A stretch of DNA of 36,865 nt, taken from contig JAISYS010000048.1 of NCBI GenBank assembly GCA_031269735.1, forward strand, positions 1-36,865. The letters are read 5' to 3'. Under the pieces are notes generated by a model that ran no database searches, was not told the DNA's origin, and saw nothing but the letters and a program-made list of their open reading frames with translations. The stretch comes from Candidatus Endomicrobiellum cubanum (lineage in GTDB: Bacteria; Elusimicrobiota; Endomicrobiia; Endomicrobiales; Endomicrobiaceae). Shown here in pieces: positions 7,981 to 21,206 of this stretch. The position numbers were made by a program, and so were the translations under genes. Every line of letters starts with the position of its first letter. Position 1 is the stretch's first letter.

Positions 7981-10761
7981 CTAGGCACGTTTATAGAAAT
8001 CAGTTGGCTGTGTAGTAAATTTATAATTAAAACCAACATTCCCATAATAACTATTTTGATGTTGAGAAAATCTACCGTTCAAATTTAAATAAACAGACAA
8101 ATCTTTGGAAGCATCATATAAAATACCTGCCCCTATAGAAGTTGATACCATATCACTCTTCAAACCTTTAATATCCATTTTTTGTGTACCATTTTTAAAT
8201 GAACTCTTAAAGTTTCCTTCTTTGCCAAAACATAATAAATCAGCTTGAGTAGATAAACACCACTTAAATTTACTATTTATACCATTATTTACTTTAATAC
8301 CCAAAGAAGAATTTACCCTATTATAAGAACCATCAAAGACAATTAAGTTTGCATCTTCTGCGCCAGTCTCAGAAAACTCATTTCTTGTAACGTGTGAGTA
8401 GTCTATATCAACAAACGGCTTCATACAAAAATTATTACTAATATAATAGTTATAAGAAATTTCTCCTGACGAATTAAGACTGTACCCTTCAAAATCAGCA
8501 CTAGTATTTCTATTTAAATAATCAATATTCCTAGAAGCAAAATAACTTTGTCTTTCTCCAATAACAAAAGTTTTAATTTCAAAATTATTCTCAAAAAATA
8601 TAGACAAGTAACTACCAACATTGTACCCCTTAATATCTATTTTATCTCTATTTTGTTTAGATTTCATATCTCTATAACCTATAGCTATCCCGAAAATCCT
8701 ACTATCTTCCCTTAAGGTATCAAAACCCACTTGAGCACCGTTACTCAAAATATTAAAATCCTCTGGAGACTCTAATGTACCTTTAAAATTATTTTGAGCA
8801 TTAAAACCTTGTACCCAAAAATTTCTCTTATAAAAACTGTCATTATTAGGGTAATAACTTCTATCTAATCTGGACAAAATATTATTTTTATACGTATTAA
8901 TAGTTGGTACCGTTATAGCATTTGCATAAATATGTCCAGACAAATTAAGCAAAGCATTTTTTTTATCTGAAACACTTGCCATTTTATCTACTACATCTAT
9001 AATATGAAATAAATCGTTTTGGGATTTACCATAGTCTCCATCTAGAGAAAAAGCAACCTGCCTTTCATTGTCTGTCAAACTGTCAATGTTATTTAACTCA
9101 TTAACATAAATGTTAAGATTGGCAGACTTCCAAGAAGTATGATTTCCAGTATCATAAGTTATATAAGAGTTTACTCTATGCATTATATTACCCTGACCAT
9201 TAGTATTATCTATCAAAATATTACCTTGAGCATTTTGTAAAGAAGAAATAAAATTGTATGTTACAGTTGTTTTATTTACACCAACAAAACTTATTTTAAC
9301 TTTAGTACCATCTAAATTAGCAGAATTCGTAATAACAAATTTATCTATATTATTACTTTGTAAATCCAAATCATAATAAAATAAAGCACTCGAGCTAAAA
9401 GTAGATATTTCTATCACATAGTCTTTTTTCCTATCTAAATTAACTGTAGCTGATGATGAAAAAGAAACATTGTCGCTTTTAAAACTTGACCCCTCGCCAA
9501 AACTTAAATAACCATCTAATACATTAAAAGTTGTTAGAATAAAATCCCCATTAAGATTAAGAGTTCCTCTGCCAATTTTATTTATAACATCATTACCACT
9601 GCTAGAACATCTTATACCACTATTTAGAGTTATACTGCGCATATCTCTGGTATCTAAAGTTAAAGTGTTTAATGAGGCACCAGTAGAATGCCCTCCCATA
9701 TAAATATCATTTCTTTTAATTTCATTTTTTATTGCCATACTGTTATTATTAAATAAAACATCACTAGTAATAGCTCCTATATAAGAAAACGTACTATCGT
9801 ATACATAAATTGCTCCTCCTTCTTGAGCAGATTTATTATCGCTAAAAGTAGCGCCATCATTTATTATTATCCCTTTTGAAAATATAGCACCACCTTGAGA
9901 AGATGTAGTTTCATTGCCTATTGCAGTAACATAAGATCTAAAAGATACGTACCCTGCGCTAGAATAAATAGCGCCTCCATTTCCATCTGCCTTATTATAA
10001 GAAATTATAGTATTACTACTAAATCCTATGTTATTTAAAGCAAAAATAGCGCCTCCATTTCCAGCAGCAACATTGCTTGAAAGTTCTACAGAAGCATAAG
10101 GTGACATAAATATAACACTTCCACTAGAATAAATAGCACCACCATCATAAGCTTGTCCAGAATGTAAGGCCTTATTATTTATAAAATAAGCACCACCATA
10201 AAATGTAGCAGTACCTACTGCACACAAGGCACCACCATTATATGCAGATGTATTAGAAAGAAATGCTATAGTATCAGTAGGATTTGAAATCCAAATATTT
10301 CCTCCAGCATAAACTGCACCACCACATGCACTAGAAGTATTTTGTTCAAAAACTATGGTTCCATTCAAATTAAAATCGCGAGTATCGGTATATATTGCCC
10401 CACCTCCATTATTGCTACCTGAAAGCCTGTGACTACCTTTTTGTAACGTAATATTATTTATTGTTACATATCCTTGTCCTGCATCAAAATTAAAAAACTT
10501 ATTATTCGATGCACTTAAAGTTCTTTTAATACTTTGGCTATTTGAACCTATTATAGAATTGTCAGCAATTGATCGTGGAGAAGAAATATCAAAATCCCCA
10601 AAAAAAATACCTGGATTAGAATTTGAGATTTGACTCCACTTAGAGTCATCGTTTATATCACTTTGAGTTATGAAATCTATATCTGCATAGCAATAGAAAG
10701 GAAGGAAGTTACAAAAAAGCAAAATAATAAATCTTATTACTTTTAACCTTTTTATATTCAT
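7981..10761 (-). CDS. Autotransporter with Pmp-like GGAI/FxxN repeats
   Basis: A 926-residue surface protein. Signal peptide: basic MNIKRLKVIRF, hydrophobic IILLFCNFLPF, then a likely cleavage after CYA. The passenger (about 30-560) carries eight GGA(I/V/L)(Y/C/F) motifs (for example GGAIYSS, GGAVYAGG, GGAIFSKG, GGAIYVYD) interleaved with FxxN-type motifs (FEQN, FLSN, FSSN, FSDN), the signature of chlamydial polymorphic membrane proteins and related beta-helix adhesins. The last 270 residues (from about WVQGFNAQ) look like an autotransporter beta-barrel, with a final strand ending VGFNYKF; an extra tail of about 11 residues follows, which is unusual because barrels normally end at the aromatic residue. 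Start: ATG at 10761 rather than a TTG six codons earlier; neither has a clear SD. Likely role: adhesion or surface interaction; the ligand is unknown. Confidence 0.88.
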   Translation of the reverse strand: MNIKRLKVIRFIILLFCNFLPFYCYADIDFITQSDINDDSKWSQISNSNPGIFFGDFDISSPRSIADNSIIGSNSQSIKRTLSASNNKFFNFDAGQGYVTINNITLQKGSHRLSGSNNGGGAIYTDTRDFNLNGTIVFEQNTSSACGGAVYAGGNIWISNPTDTIAFLSNTSAYNGGALCAVGTATFYGGAYFINNKALHSGQAYDGGAIYSSGSVIFMSPYASVELSSNVAAGNGGAIFALNNIGFSSNTIISYNKADGNGGAIYSSAGYVSFRSYVTAIGNETTSSQGGAIFSKGIIINDGATFSDNKSAQEGGAIYVYDSTFSYIGAITSDVLFNNNSMAIKNEIKRNDIYMGGHSTGASLNTLTLDTRDMRSITLNSGIRCSSSGNDVINKIGRGTLNLNGDFILTTFNVLDGYLSFGEGSSFKSDNVSFSSSATVNLDRKKDYVIEISTFSSSALFYYDLDLQSNNIDKFVITNSANLDGTKVKISFVGVNKTTVTYNFISSLQNAQGNILIDNTNGQGNIMHRVNSYITYDTGNHTSWKSANLNIYVNELNNIDSLTDNERQVAFSLDGDYGKSQNDLFHIIDVVDKMASVSDKKNALLNLSGHIYANAITVPTINTYKNNILSRLDRSYYPNNDSFYKRNFWVQGFNAQNNFKGTLESPEDFNILSNGAQVGFDTLREDSRIFGIAIGYRDMKSKQNRDKIDIKGYNVGSYLSIFFENNFEIKTFVIGERQSYFASRNIDYLNRNTSADFEGYSLNSSGEISYNYYISNNFCMKPFVDIDYSHVTRNEFSETGAEDANLIVFDGSYNRVNSSLGIKVNNGINSKFKWCLSTQADLLCFGKEGNFKSSFKNGTQKMDIKGLKSDMVSTSIGAGILYDASKDLSVYLNLNGRFSQHQNSYYGNVGFNYKFTTQPTDFYKRA

Positions 10762-10809
10762 ATTTAGAATTCTATACAATATTTTTTGTTTTGTCTATAA
10801 AACTAAGCT

Positions 10810-11005: not shown

Positions 11006-11884
11006 TTAAAATCCTGAGTTTAAAAAATTAATTGCAATTGGCCCAAAAATAACTATAAAAATTGTAGGAAATATTAACAAAATTAAAGGGATAAGAATTT
11101 TGATAGGAGCTTGATAAGCCTTCTTCTCTGCACGAGAATATATATCATTTCTTAAAGAATTTGATAAACGTTTAAAAGACTCTGCCATACCAGAACCTGA
11201 ATCCAAAGAAGTGTCAATTACTCTAACAAAAAAAGAAAGTTCTTTAATGTCTGTTTTACTAACCATATCAGAAAAAGCATCCTTTTTATCACACCCTATG
11301 TATATCTTTGACAAAGCATTTTGAAAATCTTTAATTAAAGGGCCTTCCATTATCTGTACAACTTTATTACTAGCTCTATAAAAATCCAAGCCAGAATCTA
11401 ACATGATTGACAACAAATCTGCCATATCTGGTAATTGTCTTAAAATAAGATCTTTTCTTCTTTTTAATTGCTCTTTAAGTTTTATAAAAGGCAGAAAAAA
11501 TCCTCCTAAAAAAACTAAGATAATAACTAAAATATCAATACTAACAAACATTACACAAATTATACCGCCCAGTACACCTAACAATATCTGTAAAGCAAAA
11601 AACTCATAAGGATCAATTTTTTTGTTATCAACGCCAAGAGAGTATAAATTCAATTTAATATTATTGATGTATTCTAGGAACTTTTTATTTTTTATATATT
11701 TAAACCAACATCCTAATTTTGACGAGATCTTAAAAATAAGAAATTTTATAAAATTTCTATTTTGAGTTTTGTTGATAAAATTATCTACTTTACTTGCTTT
11801 TTCAATTTTAGATATTTTGTTACATATAATAAAAACAAGAAGAAATACAAAAATTGTAAAACTTAAATAAAAAAATATTATCAT
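11006..11884 (-). CDS. tadC: Tad pilus inner-membrane platform protein TadC
   Basis: A 292-residue member of the type II secretion F (T2SSF) family. An N-terminal membrane segment, two adjacent hydrophobic segments (about 95-135), a cytoplasmic helical T2SSF domain (RQLPDMADLLSIMLDSGLDF ... DIKELSFFVRVIDTSLDSG) and a C-terminal membrane segment match TadC. With TadB it forms the platform on which the TadA ATPase drives Flp pilus assembly. It starts on the last base of the tadB stop (TAATG), so it is translationally coupled. The N-terminus is lysine-rich, as is common in AT-rich genomes. Last gene of the cluster; the autotransporter follows after about 245 bases. Confidence 0.88.
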   Translation of the reverse strand: MIIFFYLSFTIFVFLLVFIICNKISKIEKASKVDNFINKTQNRNFIKFLIFKISSKLGCWFKYIKNKKFLEYINNIKLNLYSLGVDNKKIDPYEFFALQILLGVLGGIICVMFVSIDILVIILVFLGGFFLPFIKLKEQLKRRKDLILRQLPDMADLLSIMLDSGLDFYRASNKVVQIMEGPLIKDFQNALSKIYIGCDKKDAFSDMVSKTDIKELSFFVRVIDTSLDSGSGMAESFKRLSNSLRNDIYSRAEKKAYQAPIKILIPLILLIFPTIFIVIFGPIAINFLNSGF

Positions 11885-12693
11885 TAAAAATCTATCTCCG
11901 TAATTTTTCTTATCACTAAAGATCCTAAACTAACCATAATAACAACTATTAGAAGTAGAATATTGCCTGCAAGAGTCACAAACAAAGGACATATCATGTC
12001 CGGTTCTATTAAATACATCATAAAAATTATAATAAAAGGGACTAAACTGACTATATTGCCTGAAAGTTTTCCCTGAGATGTTAATGCATTTACTTTTGAC
12101 TTAGTTGCAATTCTTTTAGATATCAGTTCTATGATTTGTTCAAATATATCCTTTAAGCTAGCGCCTGTATCTTTAGATATTTTAATTGTATTCAACACGA
12201 ATTTAAATTCCTTACTACTCGTTTTAGAAGATACTTGTCCTATTGCTTCATCAAAACTTAAGCCTAAAGTTATAGAATCAGAAATTTGCTCAAATTCGCT
12301 TTTTATTGGTTCTTTAAGTTCGTTTTTTACATCAACTATAGCATTTATTACAGTACGTCCTGACTGTAAAGAATTTTTTATGATAGTTAAAGCTTCTACA
12401 ATTTGTAAATCAATAAGATTTGAAATCTTTTGTTTTTTTAAATAGGTTAAATGCCAATCAAAGTAACTATATAAAATGCACAAAATAACTGAAAAGATGA
12501 TGTTCTCTATTGCAATAAAAGATACAATAAATATCCCGAACAAAATGACAAATCTTTTTCTTTTAATAATTAAGCTCTTAAAATCTATTTTCTTATTAAT
12601 TTTTTTATTCTTTGTTAAATTAATGCTTAAAATAAAATATATTAAACAAAATACAAATATAGATAAAGAGACCAAAAATAAAATTTCTCTCAT
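11884..12693 (-). CDS. tadB: Tad pilus inner-membrane platform protein TadB
   Basis: A 269-residue T2SSF-domain protein. Hydrophobic segments lie at about 5-25, 48-78 and in the last 60 residues; between them is the cytoplasmic domain with LQIVEALTIIKNSLQSGRTV, FEQISDSITLGLSFDEAI and TIKISKDTGASLKDIFEQI, the usual TadB pattern. It overlaps the stop of the upstream ATPase gene by 4 bases (ATGA) and the start of tadC by one base. It works as the partner of TadC under the TadA motor. The assignment of TadB versus TadC follows gene order and length and is less certain than the family. Confidence 0.88.
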   Translation of the reverse strand: MREILFLVSLSIFVFCLIYFILSINLTKNKKINKKIDFKSLIIKRKRFVILFGIFIVSFIAIENIIFSVILCILYSYFDWHLTYLKKQKISNLIDLQIVEALTIIKNSLQSGRTVINAIVDVKNELKEPIKSEFEQISDSITLGLSFDEAIGQVSSKTSSKEFKFVLNTIKISKDTGASLKDIFEQIIELISKRIATKSKVNALTSQGKLSGNIVSLVPFIIIFMMYLIEPDMICPLFVTLAGNILLLIVVIMVSLGSLVIRKITEIDF

Positions 12694-14678
12694 TTAAAAC
12701 ACTCTATATCTACACTAAACCCATTTTGATAGGCAGAACTTATAAATTCTGGGATATAATCACAAAACATAAAGTCTCCAGCAACTACACCATTGCCAAA
12801 AGATTTTTGAACATATTTAAAAACAGGCTTTATTTCATATATATTATCGTCATTCGTTTTATGTATTTGAGAAATTGAAGATATTTTTCTTGATCCATCT
12901 TGATACCTTGAAAGTTGTACAATAATATCAACGGCGGAGACAATTTGTGTAATTATAGACCTCTCTGGGATTTCTATCCCTGACATATAAATCATAGCCA
13001 CAAGTCTAGAAATAGCATCTTTAGGAGAGGTTGCATGCAAAGTAGTGAGACTACCTTCATGTCCTGTAGACATTGCCTGAAGCATATCTAACGCTTCTCC
13101 ACTACGACACTCGCCAACAATTATTCTATCTGGTCGCATTCTTAAAGCATTTATAACAAGCCTTCCAATGTTTATTTCACCAGTTCCTTCTTGAGACTTA
13201 GGTTTACTTTCAAGCCTTACAACATGTTTTTGTTGCAGGTTGAGTTCTGCAGAATCTTCTATAGTTATTAGTCTTTCATTTTCAGGAATAAAAGAAGAAA
13301 TTATATTTAGTAAAGTAGTTTTACCTGTACCTGTACCGCCAGAAACAATAATATTTTTCTTTAATAGTACGGCGAGTTTTAAGAATTCTACCATGTCTTG
13401 ATTTATACTTTTTGCAAAAAGCAAGGAATCTATTGAAAGTTTATCTTTAGAAAATTTTCTTATTGTTACAATACTGCCATCCAAAGATATAGGACTTATT
13501 ACAGCATTAACCCTAGACCCATCTTTAAGTCTAGCATCTACAATAGGAGAAGCTTCGTCAACATGTCTTCCGACTTGATGAATTATTCTATCTATAACTG
13601 TTTTAAGATTTGCTTCGCTGGAAAATGATAAATCTGTCTTAAATATTTTACCTGACTTTTCCACAAATATATTTTGATGTCCATTTACCATTATCTCTGT
13701 AATTGAAGAATCTTCTAACAAATCTTCTAAAACTCCAAGTCCTGCTATCTCATCACAAAGTTCCTTACTTAATCTATTTAAAATTTCTTCCGGTATGTTT
13801 AAGTTATTAGTTTTTATTATTTTAAACACTAGACCTTTTGTAATATTTTTTAATTTTTTTTCATCTTTTTCTTGAGCAAATTCTTTTATTTCCTCTATAA
13901 GAGTTTTTTGCAAATTATTTTTAAGTTCTTTATAAACATTTTCATTTTGATAATAACTATAATTAGAATTGTCTGTAGATTTTGTTTGCAAAGAATTTAA
14001 ATTTACAATTTTTTCCAAAGCTGCAACATAAGGATTTGTTTTATCTCGATATGAAAATGTCGGAGACAATATTTGTTTTTGAAGAGAACTGCTAAAATCA
14101 GTATCAATAATAGTACCTACACCAAAATCTAATAACATTTTGTCACAATAAAAGTTATAGTCCAAATTAAATCTAAACAAAGTAAAATTTAGTTTACTAT
14201 TAATAACTCTATATTCTTGCAAAAATAAAATCGTATTTTTTGTAGATAAACTATCAGAAAAGAAGGGTATGAGGCAATGTTTTGCTTCCTTAATTAAACG
14301 TAAAACATTTTCGCTTTTCTGATAAGGTAAAATAACATAAACATTTTTAAAATATTCATCTAAAACAAACAAAAGATATATGACACTCTCTATACTATCT
14401 ATGTTCTCCACTGGATCTTTAATACACAGTATACTGCTAGACCTGCATGTAAATAAATAATCTTTTATAATATTAAAGTTTCCAGTTGTTAAAGCAGGCA
14501 AAACATCTTCTATATACTTTATTGAACTTTTATAAACAGACCAAAAAACACTGGAATCTGGCACTGAAAAATCAACAATTATACTATCAGCTTTTTTATT
14601 AAGATTTATTGAATCTAACCCAAAAGCTATAAGGGTACACTGTAATAGAGAAGAACCTTCTGGAGATATCAAAAACAT
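12690..14678 (-). CDS. tadA: TadA/CpaF pilus ATPase with N-terminal degenerate TadZ/CpaE-like domain
   Basis: A 662-residue protein. The C-terminal part (about 240-662) is a complete secretion ATPase of the CpaF/TadA family: GLGVLEDLLEDSSITEIMVNG, VDARLKDGSRVNAV, Walker A SGGTGTGKTTL (about 446-456), ITIEDSAELNL, Walker B region RPDRIIVGECRSGEAL, and STGHEGSLTTLHA. It powers Flp pilus assembly. The first 230 residues are absent from ordinary TadA. They resemble the TadZ/CpaE MinD-like fold segment by segment (FLISPEGSSLLQCTL where SxKGGVGKSTL is expected; ADSIIVDFS; IEDVLP; a DYLF..SSILCI stretch; LLFVLDEYFKNVYVILP; a closing NPYVAALEKI), but the P-loop Lys and Gly residues are lost. ATG at 14678 has GAGG 6 bases ahead; an upstream TTG is less likely. 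The fusion is the most unusual protein in the window. Confidence 0.9.
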   Translation of the reverse strand: MFLISPEGSSLLQCTLIAFGLDSINLNKKADSIIVDFSVPDSSVFWSVYKSSIKYIEDVLPALTTGNFNIIKDYLFTCRSSSILCIKDPVENIDSIESVIYLLFVLDEYFKNVYVILPYQKSENVLRLIKEAKHCLIPFFSDSLSTKNTILFLQEYRVINSKLNFTLFRFNLDYNFYCDKMLLDFGVGTIIDTDFSSSLQKQILSPTFSYRDKTNPYVAALEKIVNLNSLQTKSTDNSNYSYYQNENVYKELKNNLQKTLIEEIKEFAQEKDEKKLKNITKGLVFKIIKTNNLNIPEEILNRLSKELCDEIAGLGVLEDLLEDSSITEIMVNGHQNIFVEKSGKIFKTDLSFSSEANLKTVIDRIIHQVGRHVDEASPIVDARLKDGSRVNAVISPISLDGSIVTIRKFSKDKLSIDSLLFAKSINQDMVEFLKLAVLLKKNIIVSGGTGTGKTTLLNIISSFIPENERLITIEDSAELNLQQKHVVRLESKPKSQEGTGEINIGRLVINALRMRPDRIIVGECRSGEALDMLQAMSTGHEGSLTTLHATSPKDAISRLVAMIYMSGIEIPERSIITQIVSAVDIIVQLSRYQDGSRKISSISQIHKTNDDNIYEIKPVFKYVQKSFGNGVVAGDFMFCDYIPEFISSAYQNGFSVDIECFK

Positions 14679-14720
14679 TTTATGCCTCAAATAAACTATT
14701 AGGATTTTAGAGAGATCATG

Positions 14721-15551
14721 TTACTTACTCATGCTTGCATACTTATTTATTATCTCCAAAACTTCTTTTTGATTTGTAAGTTTTATGTCTTTTGTATAAT
14801 TTGGATTATTTACAACTCTTGATAGATCTTTAATTACAGATGTAACTTTTAAAGGATCAATGTCATAATCTTTTGTGTCACCAGTAGGTCTTATTAGGTA
14901 TTTCAAACTCCCTTTTTGAGAAAAAAGAATAACTTTTTGGGCATCTTGTGTAGACAAAGCTAAAGTTAATATACTAGTATTGCCTATCTCATCATCTTGT
15001 TTTCTGGCTGCCCCTATATAGTTATTGCCTACAGCCAAGACCAAAACATTTTGCACTAAAGAAAATACTGTCTCTTGTAATTGCTTATTAGAGTCTGTGT
15101 ATTCTATTGCTGCAAAAATATCTATCTTGCTGCCAGGAGATAAAATGCCTATACTATCCATATCAAAAGTTATAGATATAGCTTTTTTCCCTTCTGGAAT
15201 TAAATTGCTTATTCCATATTCGTTTATCTTTGATAATTTGCTTGATAAGACTTGTTCATTTTCTTCTATTGTATTTAATGATATGTATTCGCAGGCCCCA
15301 TCCGGTAAAAAAAGCTCCTTAATACCATTAAATACTCTTGGTTGAGCATACTCTTTAGGAACATATTTTTCTAAAAGCATATCTTGTTTTATAACCGTCC
15401 CCTGAGGTATAACCTGTGAAGCTACAACGACCTTAACTGGCTCAGTCATTACTTTATATTTTGTTTCTAGGTCCGATATATAAATATATGCAAAAAATAC
15501 AGAAAGGATTGCAAAAATTAAAGCTATAAGTAATATTTTCTTATTACTCAT
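14721..15551 (-). CDS. cpaB: Flp pilus assembly protein CpaB/RcpC
   Basis: A 276-residue protein with one N-terminal membrane segment (KKILLIALIFAILSVFFAYIYI) and a periplasmic part that contains a SAF-type domain: VKVVVASQVIPQGTVIKQDMLLEKYVP, followed by the GKKAISITFDMDSIGILSPGSKIDIFA segment typical of CpaB/RcpC. In Tad systems this protein works with the outer-membrane secretin. No secretin gene is next to it here, although rcpC and rcpA usually adjoin. It starts 3 bases after the flp pilin stop, using an SD (AAAGAG) near the end of that gene. Length is normal. Confidence 0.9.
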   Translation of the reverse strand: MSNKKILLIALIFAILSVFFAYIYISDLETKYKVMTEPVKVVVASQVIPQGTVIKQDMLLEKYVPKEYAQPRVFNGIKELFLPDGACEYISLNTIEENEQVLSSKLSKINEYGISNLIPEGKKAISITFDMDSIGILSPGSKIDIFAAIEYTDSNKQLQETVFSLVQNVLVLAVGNNYIGAARKQDDEIGNTSILTLALSTQDAQKVILFSQKGSLKYLIRPTGDTKDYDIDPLKVTSVIKDLSRVVNNPNYTKDIKLTNQKEVLEIINKYASMSK

Positions 15552-15554
15552 AAC

Positions 15555-15728
15555 TTACTCTTTATCTGCCTTTTGAATAACCTTACTTGCGCTTTCAAAT
15601 TTACTTTTAACTTTTTTTCCTAAAGATTTATATGCAACAAAAACTATGCCTACAACAACTGCCACAATAAGAATATATTCTACCATTCCCTGTCCCTTGT
15701 GTCTTCTAATCCAATTAAAATTTAGCAT
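15555..15728 (-). CDS. flp: Flp-type (class IVb) pilin
   Basis: A 57-residue protein starting MLNFNWIRRHKGQGMVEYIL. A short basic leader ends in G, followed by QGMVEY with Glu at mature position 5, the prepilin-peptidase site shared by Flp pilins; the hydrophobic stretch ILIVAVVVGIVFVAY then forms the pilin helix, and a short Lys-rich tail (SLGKKVKSKFESASK) ends it. This is the structural subunit of the Tad pilus. A strong SD, AAAGGAG, lies 8 bases before the ATG. The gene lies between tadE and cpaB, the expected position. It is short enough to be missed by length cut-offs. Confidence 0.93.
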   Translation of the reverse strand: MLNFNWIRRHKGQGMVEYILIVAVVVGIVFVAYKSLGKKVKSKFESASKVIQKADKE

Positions 15729-15900: not shown

Positions 15901-16410
15901 TTATTTGCGCCATGTATATTTTTTACTTCCAGTTCCTGATAAAACTTCTAGTTTCGATCTTATTTTAATAGTTTCCTTGCCAATAACCTTCAATATTTTA
16001 GGTATTTTATACGAATATGTTATCTCTACAAAAGAATTTTTTGGTACTAGTCCTTTAACAATATCTAAAGAGCCAAAACTTGTAATATCTGGCTTTATAA
16101 AATCTATGTCAACGTCAACAGGTTTATAGTCATTTATCTCCACTTTTACAATAAGCCTATTTAGATCTAAAACTCTGCCCAGAGTCTTTGCATCACAAAG
16201 ATAATTTTTTATGTCATTTTCTATATACTTTTTATCAAAATTAGTATAGGTAATTAAATCTATGCCATATTCTGTAGCTGTTAATATTTGTTGCCACGTT
16301 AACATAAGGCTAGCAAACCACACAACTGCGAAAAGAAAAACAACAATTAATGGGGCTATTAAAGCAGCCTCCACTAACGCTTGCCCCCTTAACTGTTTAA
16401 GATACTTCAT
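15901..16410 (-). CDS. tadE: TadE-like pilus assembly protein (pseudopilin)
   Basis: A 169-residue protein. The N-terminus KYLKQLRGQALVEAALIAPLIV has the TadE/TadF signature: a basic leader, a RGQALVE processing-like site with Glu, then a membrane helix to about residue 35. The remaining 130 residues are periplasmic and strand-rich, ending in FVEITYSYKIP and a short basic tail. TadE-type pseudopilins are minor components needed for pilus assembly. It starts directly after the RND permease stop with no good SD, so it may be coupled to that gene, and it lies about 170 bases before flp. Confidence 0.88.
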   Translation of the reverse strand: MKYLKQLRGQALVEAALIAPLIVVFLFAVVWFASLMLTWQQILTATEYGIDLITYTNFDKKYIENDIKNYLCDAKTLGRVLDLNRLIVKVEINDYKPVDVDIDFIKPDITSFGSLDIVKGLVPKNSFVEITYSYKIPKILKVIGKETIKIRSKLEVLSGTGSKKYTWRK

Positions 16411-16413
16411 AAC

Positions 16414-19400
16414 TTATAAATCTTGTTTATGAAGTTGTTCTTCTGTATAATCTATCATTCTCTTTTCAGGTCTTTTCGCAAGTCTTCTCAAAAATAATCT
16501 TAATTTATCCATATATTCAAAAATTGCAGGTACGACAATTAATGTAAGAACTGTAGAACTTATAACGCCTCCTATAACAACAATTCCCATACCTTTTCTA
16601 AACTGGCCTACTTCGCTAAGACCTAACGCTGTTGGTAACATCCCAGCTATAAGAGCAAAAGACGTCATAAGTATAGGACGAAGTCTTACTATGCCAGCCT
16701 TTATTATAGCGTCATCAATATTTAAGCCGTCTCTCATCTGCTGTTGGATATAGTCTACTAAAAGTATAGAGTTTTTTGCCACAATACCTAACAGCATTAT
16801 CATTCCAATAAGCGTAAACATATCTATTGGCTGCCTTACCATAAGTAGAGCCAAAAGCCCACCTATAATAGCTAAAGGAAGAGCTATCATAATTGTAAAT
16901 GGTGTAATAATAGACTCATATAAACTTGCAAGTACCATAAAAATAAATATAAGAGATAACCCCGCAGCAATGATAATACTCTTAAACATTTCCGCCATGT
17001 CTTCAGCATTTCCAAAAAGTCCAAACCGCACATGTTTCCATTGTTCTAGATTTTCAGGTTTTGACTTTTCTTCATTAAATATTCTAATAGCTTCTTTTTG
17101 TATTTCGTTTATTGTCCCGCCTGCTGCAAGATTACCCTCAACTGAAATATAACGTACTCTATCTTCTCTAAATATTTGAGTAGGCCCTTCAGCCATTTTT
17201 AGAGAAGCAACATTCTTTAACTTTACAAGCTTATTATTTACATTGTTTATATAAATAGCATCTAAATTTTGAGCGATATCCTGCTGGTCTTGAGCAAATC
17301 TAACTTTTATATCATACTCTAAACCATTATCTCTAAATTTACCTGCCAAGGCGCCATCTATCATGGCTCTTACTTCATTTCCTACAACAACAGAACTTAC
17401 ACCGTAATCTTCCATTTTTTTAGGGTCCATCTGTATTTGCACTTCGGGTTTGCCAATTTTATAGTTGGAATGCACGTCTACAAAATAAGGTATTTCTTTA
17501 AACCGTTTTATTAAAACTTGAGACACATCATACAAGACATCTATATTGTCTCCATTGAGTTCCATAATAAACTCGCTTTCCCCACCACCGCCAACACTCT
17601 GCCTCACTATGGAAACTTCCAATTCATCGCCAAACTTTTCTTTAAAAACTTCTCTAAGATAATCTTTCATTTGCGAACTTGAACGTGTTCTTTTAGAAAT
17701 ATTCTTGTTTTTCTTTTTACTAAAAAGCCCAAAAAATTCCCCTTTAGATTCTGCCGGAATCATTTTTACATATATGCTTGATTGACTTGCAAGGTTAGAA
17801 AACATTCCACTTTGCCCTACTGCCACAGAAACAAGCTCTATATTTGGATCGTTCATCAATATTTCCTCAACTTGTTTAGTATATCTATCCATTTGATCTA
17901 AAGAAGTGCCTGGCTTTGATTGCAAGTTAATATTAAACTCGCCCCATTCAGCAGCAGGCATAAAGGTAGCTTTTAAATATTTTTTTGCCACGCCAATAGT
18001 AAAGATAAATACAAACGCTGCAATTATAAGAGTCGTAAATTTCCAACTTATAGAAAAACGGTTCTTATTTTTACCAAATTCAAAATCTACAACTTTTGCT
18101 TTTACAATAAATAATATTAATTTTTTATATGCTCTCTCCAAAATGTTAAAACATACATTAAACCACTCTACTGTAAACCTTCTAAAAATTTTAATTATAA
18201 ATTCTTGAGGTTTACCTTTTTTTGCTTCTTTAGCATTATGGTCAGGAATCATATATGCTGAAAGTAAAGGAGCAATAGTTAAAGCGTCCAATATAGATAT
18301 GAACATTGCAAACACAACTGTTAAACCAAATTCTTTAAAAAATTGCCCCATAACACCACTTAAAAAAGCTACAGGCAAAAATACAGCAATCACAGTGCTT
18401 GTAGTGGCTATAACTGCTAAAGTAACCTCATTTGTTCCATCCAAAGCCGCTTTTATAGGATTTGATCCCTCTTCATAATGCCTAAAGATATTCTCTCTAA
18501 CAACAATAGCATCGTCAATCAAAAGACCAACAGCCAGCGATAAAGCCATTAAAGACAATACATTTAAGCTAAATCCAAATGCATACATAAAAACAAAAGA
18601 GCCTATTAAACTGTTTGGCAAAGAAAGCGCTGTAATAAAGGTTGAACGCCAACTAGCTAAAAATAAATAAACTACAATTATTGCAAGAAAAACGCCCTCA
18701 ATAATTGTGGATTTAACATTTTCTATGTTCATTCTTACGCCATGCGCAGAATCTGAAATCATAGTAAGCTGTGGTCGCCCATCATACTGTAAATACTTTT
18801 GATTGACTTCGGCAATCTTTTTCTTTATCCCATCTGATATTGCTACGTCGTTACCTTTTGCTTGTCTATAAATTTGCAAAAGAAGAGCAGGCTCAGAAGC
18901 AAAATTACCATTTTTTTTAATATCTATTCTTGCACGCGAAACTTCTTTTTCAACCCCATCCTCTACAGCAGCAACATCTCCAACTGTAACACGTCTATCA
19001 TTGCCTAAAAAATTTACAACAACATCGTTAATCTGAGCAACAGATCTAAATTCCCCCAAAGTTCTAAATTCTATTTCGTTTGCACCTCTGTTTACTTTTC
19101 CAGCAGGGATATTTAAAGAATTAGATTTAATTTTTGCTGCAAGAGATGTAAGAGTGAGCTCATAATTTTTAAGTTTGTTCTTATCTGCATTAATATGTAT
19201 TTCTCTTTTTTGTCCACCAATAATGTTTATCTGCGACACTCCAGAAACTTGAGCTAAATCTTTAGAAACTACATCGTCTGCAAAATCATACATCTGTTTA
19301 GGTGTAAGACCCTTTGCCTTCAAACTGATAGTTCCTATAGGAAGACTGTTAATATCTGCCTTCATTATTACTGGTTCTTTTATATCGTCAGGTAAGTCAA

Positions 19401-19749
19401 GTCTAATTTGCCCGACTTTGTCTCTAACTTCTTGAGTTGCAATGTCAGGATTTTTTGAAAGTTGGAATTCACAAAAAACTACAGACATATTATCTTGATT
19501 TATTGAACTGACGTGTTTTAAAGCGGAAACACCACTGACTGCATCTTCTATAGGTTTTGAAACAAGCTGTTCAATTTCAGCTACACCTGCACCAGGGTAA
19601 GAAGTCATAATTAAAACATATGGAAATTCCACATCAGGGAACATTCTCACGCTAAGTTTATTTAAAGAAACAGCTCCCAAAATTACAAACACCATAAGCA
19701 ACGCTATTATAAAAGTCGGGCGTTTAATTGCTATTTTTGCTAAATTCAT
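16414..19749 (-). CDS. RND-family efflux pump inner-membrane permease
   Basis: An 1111-residue AcrB/HAE1-type proton-driven transporter. It shows the family layout: a first membrane helix at about 10-28 (FIIALLMVFVILGAVSL), a large periplasmic loop with porter subdomains starting at RMFPDVEFPYV, a first helix bundle, a second periplasmic loop, and a final bundle. Proton-relay residues are kept: LAVGLLIDDAIVVREN in TM4 (Asp-Asp) and LLGIVAKNSILLVDYI in TM10 (Lys). Length is somewhat above AcrB because of a Lys-rich insertion around residues 680-700 (FFGLFSKKKNKNISKRTRSS) in the second periplasmic half. The start has SD AGAGGAT. tolC lies directly upstream, but a periplasmic adaptor (MFP) is missing from this locus. 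Substrate cannot be told from sequence. Confidence 0.95.
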   Translation of the reverse strand: MNLAKIAIKRPTFIIALLMVFVILGAVSLNKLSVRMFPDVEFPYVLIMTSYPGAGVAEIEQLVSKPIEDAVSGVSALKHVSSINQDNMSVVFCEFQLSKNPDIATQEVRDKVGQIRLDLPDDIKEPVIMKADINSLPIGTISLKAKGLTPKQMYDFADDVVSKDLAQVSGVSQINIIGGQKREIHINADKNKLKNYELTLTSLAAKIKSNSLNIPAGKVNRGANEIEFRTLGEFRSVAQINDVVVNFLGNDRRVTVGDVAAVEDGVEKEVSRARIDIKKNGNFASEPALLLQIYRQAKGNDVAISDGIKKKIAEVNQKYLQYDGRPQLTMISDSAHGVRMNIENVKSTIIEGVFLAIIVVYLFLASWRSTFITALSLPNSLIGSFVFMYAFGFSLNVLSLMALSLAVGLLIDDAIVVRENIFRHYEEGSNPIKAALDGTNEVTLAVIATTSTVIAVFLPVAFLSGVMGQFFKEFGLTVVFAMFISILDALTIAPLLSAYMIPDHNAKEAKKGKPQEFIIKIFRRFTVEWFNVCFNILERAYKKLILFIVKAKVVDFEFGKNKNRFSISWKFTTLIIAAFVFIFTIGVAKKYLKATFMPAAEWGEFNINLQSKPGTSLDQMDRYTKQVEEILMNDPNIELVSVAVGQSGMFSNLASQSSIYVKMIPAESKGEFFGLFSKKKNKNISKRTRSSSQMKDYLREVFKEKFGDELEVSIVRQSVGGGGESEFIMELNGDNIDVLYDVSQVLIKRFKEIPYFVDVHSNYKIGKPEVQIQMDPKKMEDYGVSSVVVGNEVRAMIDGALAGKFRDNGLEYDIKVRFAQDQQDIAQNLDAIYINNVNNKLVKLKNVASLKMAEGPTQIFREDRVRYISVEGNLAAGGTINEIQKEAIRIFNEEKSKPENLEQWKHVRFGLFGNAEDMAEMFKSIIIAAGLSLIFIFMVLASLYESIITPFTIMIALPLAIIGGLLALLMVRQPIDMFTLIGMIMLLGIVAKNSILLVDYIQQQMRDGLNIDDAIIKAGIVRLRPILMTSFALIAGMLPTALGLSEVGQFRKGMGIVVIGGVISSTVLTLIVVPAIFEYMDKLRLFLRRLAKRPEKRMIDYTEEQLHKQDL

Positions 19750-19778
19750 TATATTATCCTCTAAACTTTAATTTACTT

Positions 19779-21206
19779 TTACTTATTGTAATTATAAAAT
19801 GCTTTTACTGTCTCAGATATTCTAATAAGCTCCAAAATACTTCCAAGAACATTTAGCGTAGCGTCATCTAAAGCTTGTTCTGTCTGTAAAACTAAATAAG
19901 TTGTAGTTCTGCCTGTTTTTAATAATTTTTCATCTTCTTGTTTTCTTTGTTTTTGTATTTGTTCTATTTCTACAGCAAGAGTATTTTTTAATTTTGCATC
20001 ATTCCAATCATCTAAAAATTGCTGCCAATCATTATTCTCTTTAATGGATAATGATTCTGCTTTTTTTTGAGCTGAAATCTTTGCTGCTTCGTAGCCTTGA
20101 CTTAATATCCCTCTTAATTTAAAGTTTAAAGGCAAACTATACTTTAATCCTATCGAATATGAAGGTTTTTTGGCTTTTGTTAAATCATCTTGAACAATAT
20201 CAAGCTTAGTGCTTACACTATTAAGAGCATATTGTCCACTCAAAACTAAATCGGCTCCACTAGTCTTTTTATTTGCTATTTGATCATACATAGCACTGTT
20301 TACATCTTCTAAACTAGAAAGAACATCCAGTCTTGTACAATTTTTTTCTGGTTCGTAATCACTATTAAAAGATTCCCCTTTTTCTTCAAACTTTTCAACG
20401 GCATATTTAATATTCACATCTGCAATAGCCAAAAACTGATTTACCACTCTGTTTGCTTTATTTTCTTGTTCACAAGCAATTTTTAAATTCAAATTGCCAA
20501 GCTTTACTGCTGCTTGAGATTGCAAAATATCTGCCTTTTCTGCTAAGTCCATACTAAATCTTTTTTGGTTCCAGTCCAAAATTTTTTGTACTCTATTTAA
20601 AGCATTCTTCCTAAAATCTACAACCGTTTTTGCATAAGATAAATTCCAATAAGCCATTTTTGCATTAAGTAAAAGGCTTTGTTTTTGATACTCCAGCAAA
20701 TACAAAGCAGCCTTTGCGGTAGCTCTAGACTTTGCAATAGAGGCTTTTGTAGAAGCACCATTTATGTCTTTTAATAACGACTGCTCTAATTTCACAAACG
20801 GAGCAACATCAATAGTGCCAAGATCTTCATCTTTATCTGCAATTTTATAGTTACTCTGAGAACCGTTTAACCCAACAGAAACTTGAGTACCAAAGCCAAA
20901 CATCTTATTTATAGCTGCATCACAAGCAAATTTCTCTAGCTCGTCAGGTATAAGATCTAAAGAAAGAGGCCTTTTACTCTTATCGTCAGCATAATTAACT
21001 CCTGCATTTAAAGAATACGAATACGCCATTTCTAATTGAGCAAGTTTTCCCTTAACCGCATCAATGTTTGATTGTATAGACTGTAACTCACTATTATTTT
21101 TTAAAACTAAATTTAAATAATTGTCCAAATTTAAAACATCTGCATATACACTTGCTGCAAAACAATAACACAAAAAAATAACTACTACTCTTACAATCTT
21201 GTTCAT
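19779..21206 (-). CDS. TolC-family outer-membrane efflux protein
   Basis: A 475-residue outer-membrane channel. A signal peptide (MNKIVRVVVIFLCYCFAASVYA, likely cut before DVLNL) is followed by two OEP repeats of long helices: LDNYLNLVLKNNSELQSIQSNIDAVKGKL in the first half, and QGYEAAKISAQKKAESLSIKENNDW near the end. A long strand-rich segment (about 100-145) may be barrel. It starts with AGGAG 10 bases ahead and ends 30 bases before the RND permease, so the two form a transcription unit. The usual adaptor gene between or before them is absent. Its substrate follows the pump and is unknown. Confidence 0.92.
   Translation of the reverse strand: MNKIVRVVVIFLCYCFAASVYADVLNLDNYLNLVLKNNSELQSIQSNIDAVKGKLAQLEMAYSYSLNAGVNYADDKSKRPLSLDLIPDELEKFACDAAINKMFGFGTQVSVGLNGSQSNYKIADKDEDLGTIDVAPFVKLEQSLLKDINGASTKASIAKSRATAKAALYLLEYQKQSLLLNAKMAYWNLSYAKTVVDFRKNALNRVQKILDWNQKRFSMDLAEKADILQSQAAVKLGNLNLKIACEQENKANRVVNQFLAIADVNIKYAVEKFEEKGESFNSDYEPEKNCTRLDVLSSLEDVNSAMYDQIANKKTSGADLVLSGQYALNSVSTKLDIVQDDLTKAKKPSYSIGLKYSLPLNFKLRGILSQGYEAAKISAQKKAESLSIKENNDWQQFLDDWNDAKLKNTLAVEIEQIQKQRKQEDEKLLKTGRTTTYLVLQTEQALDDATLNVLGSILELIRISETVKAFYNYNK

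Follow-up and report, generated by a model that had tools for sequence, protein, structure and literature searches.

The Tad pilus assembly motor of Endomicrobium carries TadZ and TadA in one polypeptide, with the TadZ part likely acting as a nucleotide-independent scaffold of MinD fold. The wider reading, for which we see a somewhat better than even chance, is that TadZ-TadA represents a fourth Tad motor architecture that is the rule across the Elusimicrobiota, and that one clade has lost the nucleotide site while the domain itself stayed under selection. The gene in question lies on the minus strand of a 36,865-nucleotide stretch of Candidatus Endomicrobiellum cubanum DNA (hereafter, the window).

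The open reading frame spans positions 12690-14690 if read from a TTG; read from an ATG at 14678, with a GAGG a few bases 5′ of it, the gene encodes a fusion protein of 662 aa (12693..14678, stop codon at 12690-12692). No coding frame was seen on the plus strand over these coordinates, for which the initial annotation had specified no strand. The same full-length frame is present in six other Endomicrobium records, with 56-81% identity inside the genus, and its recurrence in genus, class and phylum excludes both a frame artefact and a chance occurrence. In agreement with the initial annotation, which had described ~230 extra residues ahead of a standard CpaF/TadA, an N-terminal domain (residues 1-236; 13971..14678, minus strand) precedes the TadA/CpaF part (12693..13970, minus strand), which comprises a linker and a three-helix region followed by the ATPase. 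This motor is ordinary, matching T2SSE (residues 313-591, 3.8e-56) and, as its best NCBIfam model, the TadA family model TIGR03819 (residues 297-603, 1.7e-90; 303.7 bits for the fusion protein, below the curated cut-off of 373 bits), and its catalytic motifs—GGTGTGKTT (447), RLITIEDSAE (469), RMRPDRIIVGE (513) and TGHEGSLTTLHA (538)—are intact. With a full T2SSE domain containing Walker A, Asp box, Walker B-like motif and His box, and with tadB and tadC following, the protein resembles TadA/CpaF, from which it differs by an additional 236-aa TadZ domain that is predicted to be folded.

The surrounding tad locus is compact and runs on one strand (minus): a TadE-like pseudopilin (15901..16410; PF07811, 9.7e-8), a 57-aa Flp-type pilin with the motif KGQGMVEY (15555..15728; weak Flp1_like and Flp_Fap matches, under their curated cut-offs) and CpaB/RcpC (14721..15551; TIGR03177, 5.9e-33) precede the fusion gene, and the TadB-like (11884..12693; T2SSF, 6.5e-14) and TadC-like (11006..11884; T2SSF, 1.4e-11) platform proteins, the usual neighbours of TadA/CpaF, directly follow it. 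The genes follow the canonical order cpaB-(secretin)-tadZA-tadB-tadC. Likewise, in loci from the class and phylum the N-terminal domain occupies the tadZ position before TadA, with CpaB upstream, TadB-TadC downstream and, in locus L128, a short secretin upstream. Very short secretins of 233-248 aa, consisting of a signal peptide, little else and the secretin domain, were found directly before the fused gene (L128:5329-6075) and, on contig C29 of the window's own genome, away from the tad locus and ahead of TadE/TadG-like genes (L139:6828-7529). Just downstream of tadC, the window encodes a 932-aa protein with GGAIY-like repeats and a C-terminal autotransporter-like part (7981-10779, minus strand), while an RND-type transporter and a TolC-like gene (16414-21206, minus strand) lie immediately upstream of the TadE-like gene.

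Residues 1-236 matched no Pfam or NCBIfam model, and searches with the single N-domain sequence or with 13 N-domain sequences against Pfam, NCBIfam, PHROGs and the PDB returned nothing useful. A first AlphaFold2 model, built from an alignment of 13 genus members, reached a pLDDT of 66, and its leading Foldseek matches were already of MinD/ParA type. The model built from a 41-sequence alignment of the class was confident (pLDDT 92, pTM 0.90), with FlhG (9.3e-8), the ParA structure 3ea0 (3.5e-7) and MinD 1hyq (8.5e-7) as Foldseek matches at a TM score of about 0.7. This predicted SIMIBI fold of MinD/ParA type fits the TadZ-like domain that the initial annotation had suggested, and on its basis a receiver, an FHA or an unrelated domain was rejected for residues 1-236. 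In the model, the domain begins at strand 1 of the MinD/ParA fold, without the N-terminal atypical receiver domain of TadZ/CpaE; weak Response_reg matches were obtained for TadZs that Arthrobacter and Sinorhizobium encode as standalone proteins. TadZ/CpaE ends in an amphipathic helix for the membrane, and the junction of N-domain and motor showed no clear helix of this kind.

Kinship with TadZ emerged from profiles of the wider class rather than from the window's genus, whose domain alone (profile A1) had no sequence similarity to TadZ or PDB chains. Profile matches linked the genus to fused class members (3e-10 to f3; 1.8e-9) by way of family and order relatives, and the N-domains of most class members match minD, ParA or AAA_31 models. 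A profile of 11 more distant fused class members (A5) found 3ea0 at 1e-26 and MinD at 6e-17, and a 41-row profile that includes the window matched 3ea0 at 1.8e-13. With A5, the standalone TadZs of Paraburkholderia, Sinorhizobium and Arthrobacter scored 70-103 bits (103, 72 and 70, in descending order), whereas Soj from the window's genome reached 46 bits and MinD of E. coli 37; TadZ came out above MinD and Soj with the profiles for class and phylum (A3, A5 and clade A). Ranking by profile is good but imperfect, since the TadZs of Azospirillum and Photobacterium scored lower with the fused profiles, and some standalone TadZs fell below MinD or Soj. In addition, one fused protein whose motif resembles a P-loop could be aligned along most of its length to the Paraburkholderia TadZ whose gene lies immediately upstream of cpaF (2e-15). 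Together with the predicted fold, these scores support the likeness to TadZ/CpaE noted in the initial annotation. The window protein thus shares with TadZ/CpaE the MinD/ParA fold, the place right before tadA and the best scores among the ParA/MinD relatives tested, and differs in being fused to TadA and in lacking the receiver domain and, in its lineage, the P-loop. MinD, FlhG/FleN and Soj/ParA have the fold in common with the fused domain, but they occur as free proteins, their deviant Walker A is intact and their profile scores lie under those of the best TadZs. Among solved proteins, the ParA family ATPase 3ea0 of Chlorobium tepidum is closest in sequence to the fused domains; it is a separate protein.

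The window belongs to a 1.33 Mb MAG (95.4% complete) that is most similar, among the records, to MAGs of Endomicrobium and Endomicrobiellum. AAA_31 and CbiA searches of this MAG recovered no separate TadZ and one gene only, encoding a 258-aa protein with a perfect KGGVGKTT. This gene, assigned as Soj, adjoins parB. There is a small chance that an unseen tadZ resides in the missing part of the MAG.

At the Walker A position, the loop that connects strand 1 to helix 1 (residues 4-12, ISPEGSSLL; 14643..14669, minus strand) is degenerate and lacks GxxxxGK[ST]. The window reads SPEGSSLLQCTL here, the very replacement pointed out in the initial annotation, and related Endomicrobium sequences read APGCSLLYRNL and similar, none with GxxxxGK[ST]. 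The P-loop has lost its glycines, lysine and threonine in the window and its family, and in most of the class as well. Judged from these residues, the TadZ part appears dead, as first proposed, and suggests itself as a fixed scaffold instead of an ATP switch. Alternatively, the fused domain might bind nucleotide through a non-canonical site and still gate TadA. Published TadZ is described as still binding ATP, and as having low ATPase activity, in spite of an atypical Walker A (PMC6668835), and Asp36 within IIVDFS (14571..14573, minus strand), which an alignment of 41 fused domains places at the Walker A′ aspartate position, is retained in the window and in at least 90% of these domains; moreover, GPKEGxGK[ST] is kept in most sampled members of one clade. 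However, the published motif is deviant, whereas in the window none is recognisable, and with the loop residues gone from family and most of the class we regard a surviving nucleotide site as improbable.

When read by eye in the sampled fused proteins, the P-loop state tracked the TadA tree across the phylum. In one clade (f13, f16, f19, f21 and f22), most sequences have GPKEGxGK[ST], the exceptions being L128, with R for the lysine, and L130, with GPREGAGAS. In the other clade, f10, f12 and one f15 copy carry GxKGGxGQT, in which glutamine replaces the lysine, while f1-f7, f9 and the second f15 copy lack a P-loop, with at most remnants such as TREGLGQP. The branch that inhabits termite guts is among those whose TadZ part lacks the ATP pocket. 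Given that the P-loop state follows the clades of the TadA tree, the most parsimonious order puts the fusion first and the loss of the P-loop second, which the initial annotation had not anticipated.

Another possibility is that the domain is a relict that positions nothing and only tunes the TadA hexamer—for example, extension versus retraction—like the disordered N-terminus or FHA domain of other CpaF proteins. N-terminal additions to CpaF indeed vary (none, disordered, FHA; PMC12019362), and truncating the disordered CpaF N-terminus reduced extension and retraction equally. Pairwise dN/dS within Endomicrobium was 0.13-0.28 for the N-domain and 0.07-0.21 for the TadA core, with the N-domain above the motor core in most pairs, often by about twofold. 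These values indicate a degenerate domain under purifying selection, albeit somewhat less constrained than the motor. Against a relict stand the preserved fold and a TadZ-like motif near the C-terminus, in which FSYRDKSNSYV takes the position of P-S-FS--I; we deem this option doubtful, and slightly more so than a non-canonical nucleotide site. That the N-domain is of other origin and unrelated to TadZ is highly improbable: the window's own sequence lacks a Pfam or NCBIfam match, but fold, intermediates, TadZ-ranked profile scores and the tadZ-tadA gene position all disfavour it.

The fusion extends well beyond what the initial annotation had claimed. Matches were obtained in 156 of 199 Elusimicrobiota genomes, the open frames being mostly about 630-790 aa long, and the sampled N-terminal extensions start with a TadZ-like domain; the TadZ-TadA architecture is common to Elusimicrobiota. 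A single origin of the fusion drew neither support nor rejection from the trees: one that kept all fused proteins in a single clade did as well as the best one (AU p 0.35). Three genomes harbour a second TadA of 350-410 aa that has no TadZ domain (L087:2010-3065, L093:11888-13108 and L104:2490-3560); these copies form a clade of their own branching beside one fused clade. In L126 (f22) and L134 (f21), apparent proline-rich tails of ~100-150 residues precede the TadZ domain, as read from open frames of 838 and 895 aa.

A 2025 survey of 292 CpaF orthologs distinguished three architectures, namely bare, with a disordered N-terminus and with an FHA domain (PMC12019362), and a TadZ-fused form is not among them. 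A literature search, which did not reach two key 2012 TadZ papers, likewise found no TadZ-TadA fusion. The best reading is that TadZ-TadA is a fourth CpaF architecture and adds a class to those published. Its closest analog in design is FHA-CpaF (class III), exemplified by the Moraxella bovis plasmid locus L141, which is also a CpaF with a folded N-terminal domain; there, the added domain is FHA, whereas in the fusion it is MinD-like. Phyla beyond Elusimicrobiota were covered via plasmid records. Among these, a near full-length match on the Paraburkholderia terrae plasmid pPT70 looked like a fusion outside the phylum, and turned out to be two adjacent genes.

How might such a motor have arisen and work? 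TadZ dimerises with ATP, carries a receiver domain and positions the secretin, and a model fitted to a tomography map of Caulobacter places six CpaE dimers in a ring around the CpaF hexamer, with AlphaFold3 predicting CpaE-CpaF contact (PMC13170226). By that model, CpaE and CpaF already form one assembly. Adjacent tadZ and tadA genes probably fused early in the phylum, with loss of the N-terminal receiver domain of TadZ, and the TadZ part would later have lost its P-loop in one clade. In the window, the TadZ part would serve as a nucleotide-independent scaffold of MinD fold, of which each TadA hexamer would carry six copies; these may hold the motor at the inner-membrane platform or at the pole and modulate coupling. 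Formation of the TadA hexamer would replace the ATP-driven dimerisation that free TadZ needs. As the hexamer gathers six TadZ domains, the motor might need neither this dimerisation nor the receiver domain any longer, which would explain why P-loop and receiver were lost while the fold was kept. The fixed 1:1 ratio of TadZ to TadA put forward in the initial annotation follows from the fusion itself; the removal of nucleotide control and a role in polar targeting are both inferred.

Under the proposed mechanism, each motor should contain six TadZ domains instead of twelve: the Caulobacter model has 12 CpaE per 6 CpaF, whereas the fusion allows only six TadZ. If true, the essential job of TadZ would be structural—docking and positioning the motor—and its ATP cycle would be needed only where TadZ assembles as a free protein. 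A natural fusion that fixes the partner and ratio of TadZ bears on the contact of TadZ/CpaE with the motor, on their ratio and on the purpose of the ATP site, and the homolog series with intact, altered and absent P-loops makes the role of nucleotide testable by comparison.

Within the genus of the window, the Tad locus seems to be decaying. The fused gene is broken in four genomes (G019, G053, G054 and G062), and about 20 of the 42 genomes in the genus lack it completely, many of these genomes being small and incomplete. Some Endomicrobium are reported to possess a large Tad region and another to have Tad as pseudogenes (PMC8809381), and the gene decay seen here agrees with this report.
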